From Oscillospiraceae bacterium (GTDB taxonomy: Bacteria > Bacillota > Clostridia > Oscillospirales > Acutalibacteraceae), in contig SVOG01000056.1 of the NCBI GenBank assembly GCA_015066525.1, positions 1 to 49,484 on the forward strand: DNA of 49,484 nt. The letters are read 5' to 3'. Under the pieces are notes generated by a model. It did not search any database. It saw only the letters and a program-made list of their open reading frames with translations, and was not told the origin of the DNA. Each line of letters starts with the position of its first letter. The stretch's first letter is position 1. Both the position numbers and the translations under genes were made by a program. Of this stretch, positions 18,667 through 30,135 are shown piece by piece.

Positions 18667-18747
18667 TACCTCTTTTTTGGGCTTGCAAAGCAGATAGAAG
18701 CGGATAAGATGCGATTATTGGACTAACCTTCGTTATCGCACCTCGCC

Positions 18748-19143
18748 TTATATTAAATCACTTAATCTTTTAGAATTAAAAAAGTTTTTAATCATATTAT
18801 TGTACTCCGTCCACATCGGCAGGGTGTCGCAGTATGCCGCGCGCGGGCATTTGGCTGCGCCGTCATCAAGGCAGGCAACCACTGCGAGCGAGCCTTCGGT
18901 GACTTTTAGTATCTCCGCGACGGTATAGTCCTCGGGCTTTCTTGCGAGTTTGTAGCCGCCGCCCTTACCGCTGACGCCGGTCAGCAGTTTAGCACCGACT
19001 AAGTCCTTGACGATGGTTTCCAGATACTTCTTTGAAATCTGCTGCCGTTCGGCGATGTCCTTGAGGGGAATATAATGCCCTTTGTCGTTTTGCGCTAAGT
19101 CTATCATCACTCTGAGCGCGTATCTGCCCTTGGTTGAAATCAT
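18748..19143 (-). CDS. Rrf2-family transcriptional regulator (CymR/IscR-like)
   Basis: This 131-residue protein is a winged-helix Rrf2 regulator. It begins MISTKGRYALRVMIDLA, has the recognition region ERQQISKKYLETIVKDL near residues 34-50 and the wing GKGGGYKLAR near 61-70. Three cysteines (near 90, 99 and 105) sit where IscR-type members bind an iron-sulfur cluster, though spacing alone does not prove a cluster. CymR of Bacillus controls cysteine genes. The start is the ATG at 19143, seven to eight bases after AAGGAG; an in-frame GTG further upstream would swallow the SD. It is divergent from metY-cysK and shares an operator motif with it, so autorepression and control of that operon are likely. 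Confidence 0.92.
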   Translation of the reverse strand: MISTKGRYALRVMIDLAQNDKGHYIPLKDIAERQQISKKYLETIVKDLVGAKLLTGVSGKGGGYKLARKPEDYTVAEILKVTEGSLAVVACLDDGAAKCPRAAYCDTLPMWTEYNNMIKNFFNSKRLSDLI

Positions 19144-19169
19144 CTTTTGTGCTCCTTTCACAAGTTTTA

Positions 19170-19197
19170 CCTATTATACCACAGGGTTAGTAGGTAA
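19170..19197 (-). promoter_or_regulatory. Rrf2-type operator on the regulator's own promoter
   Basis: On the minus strand it begins TTACCTACTAACC and ends AATAGG, a 28-base element. It shares about 20 of 28 positions with the element at 19227-19254. It covers the -10 and spacer of the regulator promoter. Confidence 0.7.
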
Positions 19198-19202
19198 ATC
19201 AA
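19173..19202 (-). promoter_or_regulatory. Promoter of the Rrf2 gene
   Basis: On the minus strand TTGATT, 18 bases and a perfect TATAAT. Confidence 0.65.
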
Positions 19203-19226
19203 TACAAATCTGAAAAATTTTCTTAA

Positions 19227-19254
19227 TTACCTATTGACACGGTAGGCGAATAGG
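19227..19254 (+). promoter_or_regulatory. Rrf2-type operator on the metY-cysK promoter
   Basis: It begins TTACCTATTGACAC and ends AATAGG, matching the regulator's own operator. It covers the -35 and the spacer of the sulfur operon promoter. Confidence 0.72.
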
Positions 19255-19262
19255 ATTATAAT
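19234..19262 (+). promoter_or_regulatory. Promoter of the leader peptide-metY-cysK operon
   Basis: TTGACA, a 17-base spacer and TATAAT, all perfect. Predicted start near 19269. Confidence 0.88.
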
Positions 19263-19292
19263 GAGCACAACATCACCAAAGGAGATGGTCAT

Positions 19293-19376
19293 ATGCTTAA
19301 CAAGTGGATATATGCCTCGCTTTTTGAAATGCGAATGTGTGATTTCTGTCGATGTCGATGTTGCAATCAGAAATAA
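19293..19376 (+). CDS. Cysteine-rich leader peptide of the sulfur operon
   Basis: An ATG at 19293 follows AAAGGAG at ideal distance and opens 27 codons ending in TAA. Residues 16-24 are CDFCRCRCC, five cysteines in nine codons; the rest is ordinary. It lies about 24 bases after the predicted transcription start and ends 32 bases before metY, whose products make cysteine. The layout is that of an attenuator leader peptide, like the cysteine-rich leaders of Actinobacteria, in which ribosomes slow on Cys codons when Cys-tRNA is scarce. No intrinsic terminator lies between the leader and metY, so translational control is more likely than transcription attenuation. A cluster-binding micropeptide is the alternative. 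Confidence 0.75.
   Translation: MLNKWIYASLFEMRMCDFCRCRCCNQK
19342..19374 (+). promoter_or_regulatory. RNA hairpin enclosing the cysteine codons
   Basis: ATTTCTG (19342-19348) and CAGAAAT (19368-19374) pair over seven bases. The loop holds the last three cysteine codons. ATTTCT can alternatively pair, with two G-U pairs, with GGAGAT, the metY SD at 19395-19400. Confidence 0.4.
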
Positions 19377-19408
19377 ACATATTTACATTTTGAAGGAGAT
19401 TTTATATA

Positions 19409-20689
19409 ATGAGTTATAAGTTTGAGACATTACAGTTACATATCGGCCAGGAGCAGGCGGACCCCGCCACCGATTCCAGAGCCGTTCCGATTTATCAGAC
19501 CACATCCTATGTGTTCCATGATTCCCGGCATGCGGCTGACCGTTTCGGTCTCGCCGATGCGGGCAATATTTACGGCAGACTGACCAACAGCACCCAGGAG
19601 GTGCTCGAAAAGAGAGTGGCAGCCCTCGAGGGCGGCAGCGCAGCACTTGCGCTCGCATCGGGCGCGGCAGCCATCACCTATACGATTGAGGCGCTTGCGG
19701 CAAACGGCGGTCACATCGTCGCGCAGAAAACGATTTACGGCGGCAGTTACAACCTGCTTTCCCATACGCTGCCGCAGTACGGTATCGAGACCACCTTTGT
19801 GGACGCGCATAACCTCGCTGAGGTAGAGGGCGCGATTCGCGATAATACGAGAGCGATTTATCTTGAGACACTCGGCAACCCGAACAGCGACATTCCCGAT
19901 ATTGACGCGATTGCAGAACTCGCGCACCGCCACGGATTGCCCGTCGTTGTGGATAACACCTTCGGCACTCCGTATCTCATCCGACCGATTGAGCACGGCG
20001 CCGATATCGTCGTCCACTCGGCAACGAAATTCCTCGGCGGTCACGGTACCACCCTCGGCGGCATTATCGTCGAGTCGGGCAAATTCGACTGGTCCGCGAG
20101 CGGCAAATATCCGAATATCGCGGCGCCGAATCCGAGTTACCACGGCGTTTCGTTTTATGACGCAGTAGGACCTGCGGCGTTTGTGACCTACATCCGTGCG
20201 ATTCTCCTGCGCGATACGGGCGCTTCGATTTCCCCATTCAATGCGTTTCTGCTTTTGCAGGGGGTCGAGACACTTTCCCTCCGTCTCGAGCGCCACGCGG
20301 AGAACACGAAGAAGGTCGTGGAATACCTCGCTAACCACCCGCAGGTGGAGAAGGTCAACCATCCGTCACTCCCCGACCATCCCGACCACGCGCTATACAG
20401 TAAATACTTCCCGAACGGCGGCGCGTCGATATTTACTTTTAATATCAAGGGCGGCAGGGAAGACGCCTGGAAGTTTATTGACAATCTCAAAATCTTTTCC
20501 CTTCTCGCCAATGTGGCGGATGTGAAGAGTCTTGTGATTCACCCGGCTTCGACGACGCACTCCCAGCTTTCGGCGGAGGAACTCGCTGAGCAGGGCATCT
20601 ATGAAAACACCATCCGTTTGTCCATCGGCACGGAACATATCGACGATATCATCGCAGATTTAGACAATGCATTTAAGGAGGCAGAATAA
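19409..20689 (+). CDS. metY: O-acetylhomoserine sulfhydrylase family enzyme
   Basis: This 426-residue PLP enzyme of the Cys/Met metabolism family normally joins O-acetylhomoserine and sulfide to homocysteine; some members also accept O-acetylserine. It begins with the MetY-type FETLQLHIGQEQ (about residues 5-16), has SGAAAITYT near 84-92, the DNTFGTPYLIRP loop near 184-195 and the PLP lysine in HSATKFLGGHG near 205-215. The length and the long GVSFYDAVGPAAF insert fit MetY and not the shorter MetB/MetC. AAGGAG precedes the ATG. Its stop overlaps the cysK start by one base. It is controlled by the Rrf2-type promoter and the cysteine-rich leader. Confidence 0.93.
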   Translation: MSYKFETLQLHIGQEQADPATDSRAVPIYQTTSYVFHDSRHAADRFGLADAGNIYGRLTNSTQEVLEKRVAALEGGSAALALASGAAAITYTIEALAANGGHIVAQKTIYGGSYNLLSHTLPQYGIETTFVDAHNLAEVEGAIRDNTRAIYLETLGNPNSDIPDIDAIAELAHRHGLPVVVDNTFGTPYLIRPIEHGADIVVHSATKFLGGHGTTLGGIIVESGKFDWSASGKYPNIAAPNPSYHGVSFYDAVGPAAFVTYIRAILLRDTGASISPFNAFLLLQGVETLSLRLERHAENTKKVVEYLANHPQVEKVNHPSLPDHPDHALYSKYFPNGGASIFTFNIKGGREDAWKFIDNLKIFSLLANVADVKSLVIHPASTTHSQLSAEELAEQGIYENTIRLSIGTEHIDDIIADLDNAFKEAE

Positions 20690-21621
20690 TGTCAAAGGTA
20701 TATAAAAACGCGGCGGAGCTTATCGGCAACACGCCGCTCGTAGAAGTAACGAATATTGAAAAAGAGCTTGACCTTAACGCAAAGGTGCTCGTAAAACTTG
20801 AATACTTTAACCCCGCCGGCAGTGTGAAGGACAGAATCGCCAAGGCGATGATTGAGGATGCCGAGGCAAAGGGCGTGCTGAAGGAAGGCGCGGTCATCAT
20901 CGAGCCGACCTCGGGCAATACGGGTATCGGTCTCGCAGCGATTGCTGCTGCAAAGGGTTACAAAATTATCCTGACGATGCCCGAGACAATGAGCGTGGAG
21001 CGCCGCAATATCCTCAAGGCGTACGGCGCTGAGATTGTGCTCACCGAGGGCGCTAAGGGTATGAAGGGCGCTATCGCAAAAGCGGAGGAACTCGCCGCTG
21101 AGTACGAGAACAGCTTCATCCCCGGTCAGTTCGTGAACCCCGCGAACCCCGCGATTCATAAGGCAACCACGGGTCCCGAGATTTTCCGCGATACGGACGG
21201 CGCAGTGGATGTCTTTATCGCAGGCGTCGGCACGGGCGGTACCGTTACCGGCACGGGCGAATATCTCAAGGAGCAAAAACCCGATGTAAAGGTCATCGCC
21301 GTGGAGCCCGAGACCTCTCCCGTTCTTTCAAAGGGTACGGCGGGTGCCCATAAGATTCAGGGTATCGGCGCGGGATTTGTGCCCGACGTACTGAATACCG
21401 AGGTGTACGACGAGGTCATCACTTCGTCAAACGAGGCAGCCTTCGAGGCAGCTAAGCTCCTCGCAAAGAAAGAGGGCATTTCCGTCGGCATCTCCTCCGG
21501 CGCAGCACTCGGCGTTGCGATTGAACTCGCGAAGCAGGATGCCTATGCCGGCAAGACCATCGTCGCCCTCCTCCCCGACAGCGGCGACAGATATTACTCC
21601 ACTCCGCTCTTTACGGAATAA
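20689..21621 (+). CDS. cysK: Cysteine synthase (O-acetylserine sulfhydrylase)
   Basis: The 310-residue enzyme makes cysteine from O-acetylserine and sulfide with PLP. NPAGSVKDR near residues 42-50 contains the PLP lysine, PTSGNTGIGLA near 70-80 is the substrate loop, GTGGTVTGTGE near 177-187 binds the PLP phosphate, and SSGAALG near 263-269 follows. All catalytic residues seem intact. It overlaps metY by one base (TAATG), with AAGGAGG inside the metY end as SD. The pair gives both routes of sulfide assimilation, which suits control by cysteine supply. Confidence 0.96.
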   Translation: MSKVYKNAAELIGNTPLVEVTNIEKELDLNAKVLVKLEYFNPAGSVKDRIAKAMIEDAEAKGVLKEGAVIIEPTSGNTGIGLAAIAAAKGYKIILTMPETMSVERRNILKAYGAEIVLTEGAKGMKGAIAKAEELAAEYENSFIPGQFVNPANPAIHKATTGPEIFRDTDGAVDVFIAGVGTGGTVTGTGEYLKEQKPDVKVIAVEPETSPVLSKGTAGAHKIQGIGAGFVPDVLNTEVYDEVITSSNEAAFEAAKLLAKKEGISVGISSGAALGVAIELAKQDAYAGKTIVALLPDSGDRYYSTPLFTE

Positions 21622-29910: not shown

Positions 29911-30135
29911 AAAATAAAAAGCGCCCTGAAACATCAGGGTGCATGGTTTACACGGTTCCACCTGAATTATACCTTGCGGTATCACTCAAACCCTTTAACG
30001 CAGGGGGTACGGCACACCATTTCCTGTGTGCGGCTCGGGGATGGTAACAATTCTTCTGCGTGCGTTTTTGCACCGACCAAACGCTCTCTGAAACGCAGGG
30101 CAAAACTGCCGTGTTCCCGTCACTGCCTTAATATT
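29911..30135 (-). promoter_or_regulatory. T-box riboswitch of thrS
   Basis: On the minus strand it contains the T-box core AGGTGGAACCGTG (29951-29963) and a terminator GCACCCTGA/TCAGGGCGC followed by CTTTTTATTTTT (29911-29942). A stem I region has CAGAGAG, a GGTCGGTGC segment and a GAA-rich loop before a likely specifier ACC (Thr) at 30043-30045. Binding of uncharged tRNA-Thr would stabilise the antiterminator and allow thrS transcription. The specifier position is inferred from the thrS context and the general T-box layout. Confidence 0.92.

Follow-up and report, generated by a model that had tools for sequence, protein, structure and literature searches.

A short leader ORF upstream of metY carries a fixed CGA-AUG codon pair and may control translation of sulfur amino-acid genes

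In this work we present an analysis of a short leader ORF preceding metY-cysK in a 49,484-nucleotide stretch of DNA from an Oscillospiraceae bacterium (referred to below as the window), whose source genome is a 1.64-Mb draft, 74% complete. Sequence comparison shows a genuine leader ORF that is one member of a large family, whose fixed feature is the codon pair CGA-AUG, not a cysteine run. We propose, with a probability of about 0.6, that the leader is a translational-attenuation device for sulfur amino-acid genes, which is ON when a ribosome stalls on it. The initial annotation had described it as a cysteine attenuator, a reading that is partly supported: right in part and too narrow. The features of the locus are as follows.

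18748..19161, minus strand: divergent Rrf2-family regulator (TIGR00738, 118.7 bits, over the cut-off; under the CymR and IscR cut-offs)
19230..19246, plus strand: Rrf2-like candidate operator CCTATTGACACGGTAGG, overlapping the -35 box (recurrent motif, divergent Rrf2 gene nearby)
19234..19262, plus strand: predicted sigma-70-like promoter TTGACA-N17-TATAAT (12/12 consensus bases)
19278..19285, plus strand: SD of the leader ORF, sequence AAAGGAGA
19293..19376, plus strand: leader ORF of 27 codons (translation and family conservation)
19316..19323, plus strand: candidate anti-SD 5' of CGA (CTCGCTTT), with which the metY SD of the window is mainly predicted to pair; counterpart of the NFR codons of relatives
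19332..19340, plus strand: core codons CGA-AUG-UGU (Arg14-Met15-Cys16; CGA-AUG in 49/49 target-linked leaders, CGA in 50/51 picked rows)
19335..19355, plus strand: second candidate anti-SD, over the first Cys codons (predicted duplex of -10.6 kcal/mol with the metY SD segment, and family permutation z)
19338..19364, plus strand: Cys tail TGT GAT TTC TGT CGA TGT CGA TGT TGC (translation and family Cys enrichment)
19392..19399, plus strand: SD of metY, sequence GAAGGAGA
19409..20689, plus strand: metY, O-acetylhomoserine aminocarboxypropyltransferase (TIGR01326, 629 bits)
20689..21621, plus strand: cysK, cysteine synthase A (TIGR01139, 447 bits)

The leader ORF is translated as MLNKWIYASLFEMRMCDFCRCRCCNQK followed by a stop codon, with cysteines at residues 16, 19, 21, 23 and 24. 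Five or more cysteines per nine-residue stretch occur in only 2 of 98,916 such stretches in the six frames of the whole window, and the leader stop lies 32 nt before the metY start. The ORF of 27 codons, its SD, the five cysteines within residues 16-24 and the gap before metY, all reported in the initial annotation, were confirmed on the sequence; missed there was that the ORF uses CGA for each of its three Arg residues, always immediately 5' of AUG or UGU. The window peptide matched no family in NCBIfam, Pfam or PHROGs, and the typical leader peptides of relatives matched none in NCBIfam and PHROGs. The predicted -10 box ends 31 nt 5' of the leader ATG. A CCTATTGACANNNTAGG-like motif, as found at 19230-19246, precedes the leader in 15 of 50 leader-bearing metY loci (a count that includes the window), pointing to an Rrf2-type regulator common to metY promoters; we take CCTATTGACACGGTAGG to be the putative Rrf2 operator named in the initial annotation.

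Conservation was examined in a family sample of 150 genomes, in the DNA upstream of 76 metY-orthologous loci (bit score of at least 534); all counts take the related genomes as they came, without a tree. An SD-led short ORF with Arg-Met was picked upstream of metY in 51 of these loci, under a rule that left the Arg codon of Arg-Met free and demanded an SD as well as Cys, Gly or FR/NF (one or more) nearby. One wrong Arg-Met pick (L057) was dropped from the 51 rows, and L033, L061, L073 and others, lying far from metY, are doubtful. Typical leader peptides in relatives are MKNTFEKLVRANFRFGRMCRCCRTPNSGAH and MPRDFQKLLRANFRFGRMCCCCKNR; those of two congeners, MINYYSKLVFKNIRNERMCFRCYC and MKYILNAIIAKNYKNDRMCFRCCK, end in RMCFRCYC and RMCFRCCK. 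The hexamer CGAATG lies within 200 nt upstream of metY in 56 of the 76 loci, where it is the commonest hexamer, and in 49 of the 56 it is found 54-108 nt before metY. Among the 20 loci that have no CGAATG, at least five are apparently operon-internal (L005, L013, L014, L071 and L060), with an upstream ORF ending 1-144 nt before metY; presumably this ORF is NifU/IscU-like in the first three, CysK-like in L071 and MetA-like in L060, and metY may sit inside an operon in these loci. In 8 of the 20, no ORF of 60 codons was found near metY in the 420 nt covered. An internal Met precedes the core in 21 of 194 leaders. At one metY locus (L171) the core NFRCGRMCCSCSNS is tandemly duplicated within one ORF, the copies being 42 nt apart. 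A subgroup (L273, L293, L295, L298, L146 and L180) carries a second C-terminal motif after Arg-Met, SRAxxMAGRxxAP-like, which replaces or accompanies Cys. Viral contigs gave two matches, neither with a convincing leader.

The Arg codon of Arg-Met is CGA in 50 of the 51 picked rows upstream of metY, while CGA accounts for 24 of 800 Arg codons (3%) in the related metY genes among the matches listed. Some of the sets had been collected with a CGA-containing pattern, so the search was redone with the Arg codon left free. In 295 genomes at the level of the order it returned 63 sites in 55 genomes, with about 20 matches in the reversed control. Of these sites, 49 precede metY (40), metQ (8) or metN (1), and the pair is CGA-AUG in all 49; among the 14 sites that have no such target, CGA is found in 6 (4 leader-like, 2 in long ORFs) and another Arg codon in 8 (49/49 vs 6/14, Fisher 8e-7). 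For 33 of the 63 sites the downstream search covered only about 350-420 nt, so some targets may be missed. The consensus pattern of this search recovers only members with NFRxG, which the window copy does not carry. Most leaders of a further set of 156 came from patterns already containing CGAATGTG, which biases the CGA-AUG and first-Cys counts there, and the claims on both therefore rest on the 51-row, 76-locus hexamer and 49-leader sets. Target-linked leaders were found in 13 of the 26 families sampled across the order of the window. As a separate candidate, CGAAUG as an arm of a fixed hairpin was rejected: 39 of 156 leaders contain a wobble partner, vs 43.5 expected, and 3 the exact CATTCG.

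The targets were surveyed further by a one-genome-per-species scan with a CGAATGTG-containing pattern, which gave at least 120 loci; 119 loci with 120 matches were analysed, one locus with masked bases (L150) being left out. Among the 120 matches listed, the target is metY in 95 and metQ in 13 (both grouped by BLAST clustering), with single cases of metN (L169) and cysK (L202, an 84-codon reading), two transporter permeases (L208 and L220, BPD_transp_1), and 7 matches lacking a usable gene (none in 6, only a 42-codon fragment in L149). Spot checks identified the metQ product of L103 as an NlpA lipoprotein (PF03180) and the metN product of L169 as ABC_tran with a NIL domain. In a Treponema record (L140), the leader MKFFFEKLVRENFRNGRMCLCCLFN stands before a gene for a URO-D-domain protein, possibly through transfer or as a mis-binned contig. 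As the targets of the free-Arg search are methionine-centred (40 metY, 8 metQ and 1 metN of 49), a methionine signal is at least as likely as a cysteine one.

The cysteine tail behaves differently from the pair: it is enriched but optional, as seen in the leader sequences. From the second codon after Arg-Met, in-frame Cys makes up 54 of 221 residues in 50 metY leaders; the other two frames give 12 of 286 and 2 of 260. In the 49 leaders, a sample not selected for Cys, a Cys tail is present in 30 and no Cys follows Arg-Met in 19, of which 16 stop straight after Met (RM-UGA). The check proposed with the initial annotation, that relatives should keep the ORF with its cluster, held for the ORF, but the Cys cluster is kept only in part. 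The exact Cys run of the window was rejected as a conserved element, being present in 1 of 150 genomes, the window's own.

Codon choice within the tail repeats that of the core. Among Arg codons 3' of Arg-Met in 194 distinct leaders, CGA accounts for 38 of the 63 that precede Cys vs 11 of the 114 that do not (Fisher 1e-12); the Cys codon following is TGT in 38 of 38 cases after CGA and in 22 of 25 after other Arg codons. In the 156-leader set, an in-frame CGA after Arg-Met (n=38) is followed by TGT in 31 cases, by ATG in 3 and by a stop in 4. Of the 32 CGATGT copies located 3' of the pair in this set, 31 are in frame and one is not; outside this region, one copy precedes the pair, the 9652 nt that follow the stops hold another, and the stretches of up to 100 nt preceding the ORFs hold 4. 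With 31 of 32 copies in frame, an RNA motif CGATGT was rejected, and the rule would operate at the codon level: CGA directly 5' of a Met or Cys codon.

Control by the leader appears to be translational (SD masking, modelled at the family level) rather than transcriptional. No intrinsic terminator was found in the window at 18700-19600. In the related loci (163 rows, from which matches lacking a start or gene call were dropped, with identical leaders merged, 163 to 156), intrinsic terminators occur in 4 of 135 metY, 0 of 13 metQ and 1 of 7 other loci, with shuffled means of 1.6, 0 and 0.2; being this rare, they make transcription attenuation of the trp type unlikely. Neither the locus nor 8 related loci reached the gathering score of any Rfam covariance model, and a T-box, SAM riboswitch or other Rfam element was accordingly rejected there. 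The sole T-box leader of the window lies elsewhere, at 29932-30132 on the minus strand (98.4 bits, at gathering score), so that the genome also employs tRNA-sensing leaders of the usual Firmicutes kind.

In silico folding was performed for 121 of 135 metY loci (SD openness), 134 loci (permutation) and 111 NF-type leaders (synonym swap). In predicted folds, the openness of the metY SD is 0.36 vs 0.54 with shuffled leaders, and it is lower in 98 of the 121 loci. The main predicted partner of the SD in these loci is the segment from -14 to -5 before CGA, corresponding to the NFR codons. Placing a simulated ribosome with its P site on CGA or AUG raises the openness of the metY SD by +0.18 or +0.17; the opening forms a plateau of +0.12 to +0.18 from codon -9 to +2 and then falls, with no pronounced maximum at CGA. 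Upstream of CGA, the native codons pair with the SD at -7.50 kcal/mol vs -6.49 kcal/mol for swapped synonyms (z -7.2, 0/200 swaps, 111 leaders). Controls with a reversed SD (z +0.65) and inside metY (z +1.2) were flat, but those at metY -45..-24 (z -3.5), leader -45..-25 (z -2.9) and with the leader's own SD (z -1.8) were not. The highest GC third gave only z -1.8, as did the pairing in 13 metQ leaders.

The pairing was also assessed by permuting the SDs among loci. Own SDs outperformed those of other loci on the 5' and 3' flanks of CGA with z of -3.7 and -4.0 in 23 loci that have no NF motif, and of -6.5 and -8.2 in 111 NF-type loci. As controls, the region +24..+45 showed no better pairing, and -42..-21 gave z -3.1 in the 111 NF-type loci. 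Initially the 3' flank served as a control (+9..+29, z -5.0); its designation as a second masking segment came only later. One congener (L020) pairs weakly with its metY SD on both flanks (-3.2 and -4.7). In the window copy the predicted SD openness is 0.442 vs 0.415 in shuffled sequences, 53 of 100 shuffles being as low or lower. With Met15 in the P site and Cys16 awaited it rises to 0.61, and with Cys16 in the P site to 0.65; a simulated stall awaiting Cys23 or Cys24 leaves it unchanged, and the highest opening, 0.69, is obtained with Ile6 in the P site, distant from the core. As the fold of the window copy is no more masked than expected by chance, the mechanism is held at the family level and extended to the window by homology.

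In the mechanism we propose, the metY SD would be masked and metY expression low when the leader is untranslated or quickly finished. The two masking segments, predicted to pair with the metY SD, flank CGA on its 5' and 3' sides, so that both would be covered by a ribosome held at CGA-AUG-UGN. Such a slowed ribosome, its P site occupied by CGA or AUG, would release the SD and switch metY-cysK on. The slowing would come from a hungry codon right after CGA: AUG family-wide, when Met-tRNA is scarce, and in the Cys-tailed members, window included, also UGU/UGC, when Cys-tRNA is scarce. CGA, read by an inosine tRNA, would weaken the decoding step and give a sharper stall. The conserved nascent chain L-x-R-x-N-F-R-x-G may assist in the members carrying it, and transcription would be regulated separately through the Rrf2-type operator at the promoter. 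Shortage of Met-tRNA is the probable signal, joined by that of Cys-tRNA in Cys-tailed forms like the window copy; with AUG fixed and the targets mostly of methionine, scarce Met-tRNA would be the simplest common signal.

Published measurements bear on the role of CGA. According to the part of PMC4046918 consulted, CGA was slow in a Salmonella his-leader assay, though stalling was stronger at AGG; for B. subtilis, the consulted part of PMC10454642 reports that lacZ was not impeded by four CGA codons. Slowness alone thus fails to explain the exclusive use of CGA.

Another account of the conserved codons is a nascent-chain arrest peptide similar to TnaC, in which NFRxGRM in the tunnel would sense a small molecule (e.g. 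O-acetylhomoserine, methionine or SAM) and arrest translation at UGA or UGN while Met occupies the P site. It agrees with a chain conserved at the amino-acid level with free synonymous use: in 117 leaders with the 16-codon spacing, Arg10 is encoded by AGA (54), CGC (21), CGG (15), CGA (8), CGT (7) and AGG (6), and N12, F13, R14 and G16 are kept as well. Of 50 leaders, 31 have CGA at a distance of 16 codons from the start. A stop directly after Met is UGA in 16 of 16 cases, compared with 11 TGA and 22 TAA in the other 33 leaders (Fisher 5e-6), but this may just reflect one-base changes between UGY and UGA, and SD pairing accounts for part of the NFR conservation. Moreover, several members, among them the window copy, have no NFRxG and yet keep CGA-AUG, and an amino-acid signal leaves the exclusive CGA codon unexplained. 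We therefore consider an arrest peptide unlikely.

The cysteine attenuator in its pure form, in which lack of Cys-tRNA would stall ribosomes at the Cys run and nowhere else, fits the in-frame Cys enrichment after the core, the five cysteines of the window copy, and the predicted opening of its SD while the first Cys is awaited (0.61 vs 0.44). What it leaves out are the 19 of 49 leaders in which no Cys follows Arg-Met, the 16 ending RM-UGA included, the presence of metQ and metN among the targets, and the fact that the invariant codons are CGA-AUG. The conserved leader peptide with its in-frame Cys enrichment thus upholds the initial reading in part, but the Cys cluster does not define the family, and as a full explanation this form is quite unlikely.

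Alternatively, CGA itself could be the sensor, if its decoding by tRNA-Arg(ICG) depended on a sulfur- or SAM-dependent tRNA modification. The s2C32 modification is linked to CGA decoding; a further, conjectural version of this reading is based on A37 and SAM. The window's own genome has a tRNA-Arg(ACG) with C32 and A37, and a TtcA-like protein at 183.9 bits, which is below the cut-off of 272. At E 1e-40, however, the TtcA-like protein is absent from 21 of 43 genomes, including leader-bearing ones that are 99% complete (e.g. G098, G101 and G032). With the protein absent from leader carriers, the thiolation version is not general, and TtcA thiolation of tRNA-Arg was rejected as the general reason for CGA; we regard CGA as the sensor as very improbable. 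The TtcA-like gene of the window's genome lies on a different contig from metY, and in two congeners (G021:C27:72077-74463 and G149:C30:6858-9252) such a gene is the immediate 5' neighbour of metY, co-oriented with it and about 290-300 nt away.

A chance ORF, or an RNA motif that acts without translation, would suit the unremarkable fold of the window copy taken alone, but is barely credible against the frame-specific use of Cys and CGA, the SD in front, the usually fixed start distance and the conservation at the peptide level.

The translational-attenuation reading thus remains the preferred one, and a wider form of it can be outlined, which we put forward as possible but doubtful. The family might represent an order-wide two-codon sensing unit, pairing CGA with a hungry codon, either AUG or the UGU of the Cys tail; poor decoding of CGA would make the sulfur amino acid that comes next rate-limiting. 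One short ORF would then read both Met-tRNA and Cys-tRNA, controlling metY, metQNI and cysK by freeing the start site, and in the boldest form the decoding of CGA would itself report a sulfur- or SAM-dependent modification of the inosine tRNA.

Leader-peptide attenuation is textbook knowledge for tryptophan and histidine. In the translational attenuation of ermC and catA86, a ribosome stalled on the leader ORF frees the SD of the next gene. The same release by a stalled ribosome is proposed here from predicted folds; those systems answer to antibiotics, whereas the signal suggested here is a sulfur amino acid. TnaC senses tryptophan. Arrest peptides of its type (PMC8429421, consulted in part) share with the leader a short conserved peptide and a possible halt near its end, UGA following the core directly in 16 of 49 leaders; unlike in TnaC, no ligand is known here, the exact CGA codon is fixed, and a Cys tail is present in 30 of 49.

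The nearest likeness in the Cys tail is found in Actinobacteria. One of the studies concerned is attributed to Seliverstov et al. (2005). As far as the consulted part of that study goes (PMC1262725), cysteine leader peptides were predicted in Actinobacteria, with Cys-codon runs near the stop of a short ORF and no terminator found, as here, and Rho-dependent termination was suggested by its authors; a CGA-AUG pair and SD masking are absent from the description in that part. Mycobacterial polycysteine leader ORFs (Canestrari et al. 2020, via an excerpt of PMC13236596) are likewise short Cys-coding ORFs before cysteine genes, and their control is termed translation attenuation there. A Cys-codon run before sulfur genes, the mark of that type, is found in the window (5 Cys, residues 16-24) and in part of the family. 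By the title, the mycobacterial ORFs are leaderless, whereas here the SD AAAGGAGA and a predicted 24-nt 5' region precede the ORF; compared with what the same excerpt describes, the Cys run is optional here, CGA-AUG is fixed, the targets centre on metY and metQNI, and the phylum is different. Searches of the open-licence PubMed Central literature turned up no leader for methionine, or for methionine plus cysteine, in Clostridia, nor any description of the present leader, which may be described elsewhere.

Since the leader occurs in 13 of 26 sampled families, it may be a main control of sulfur amino-acid genes in this order. What is fixed at the proposed stall site is a codon and not just an amino acid, and this offers a clean natural test of the combination of a poorly decoded and a hungry codon. 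The CGA-AUG leader would also serve as a marker for sulfur regulons in unannotated genomes.
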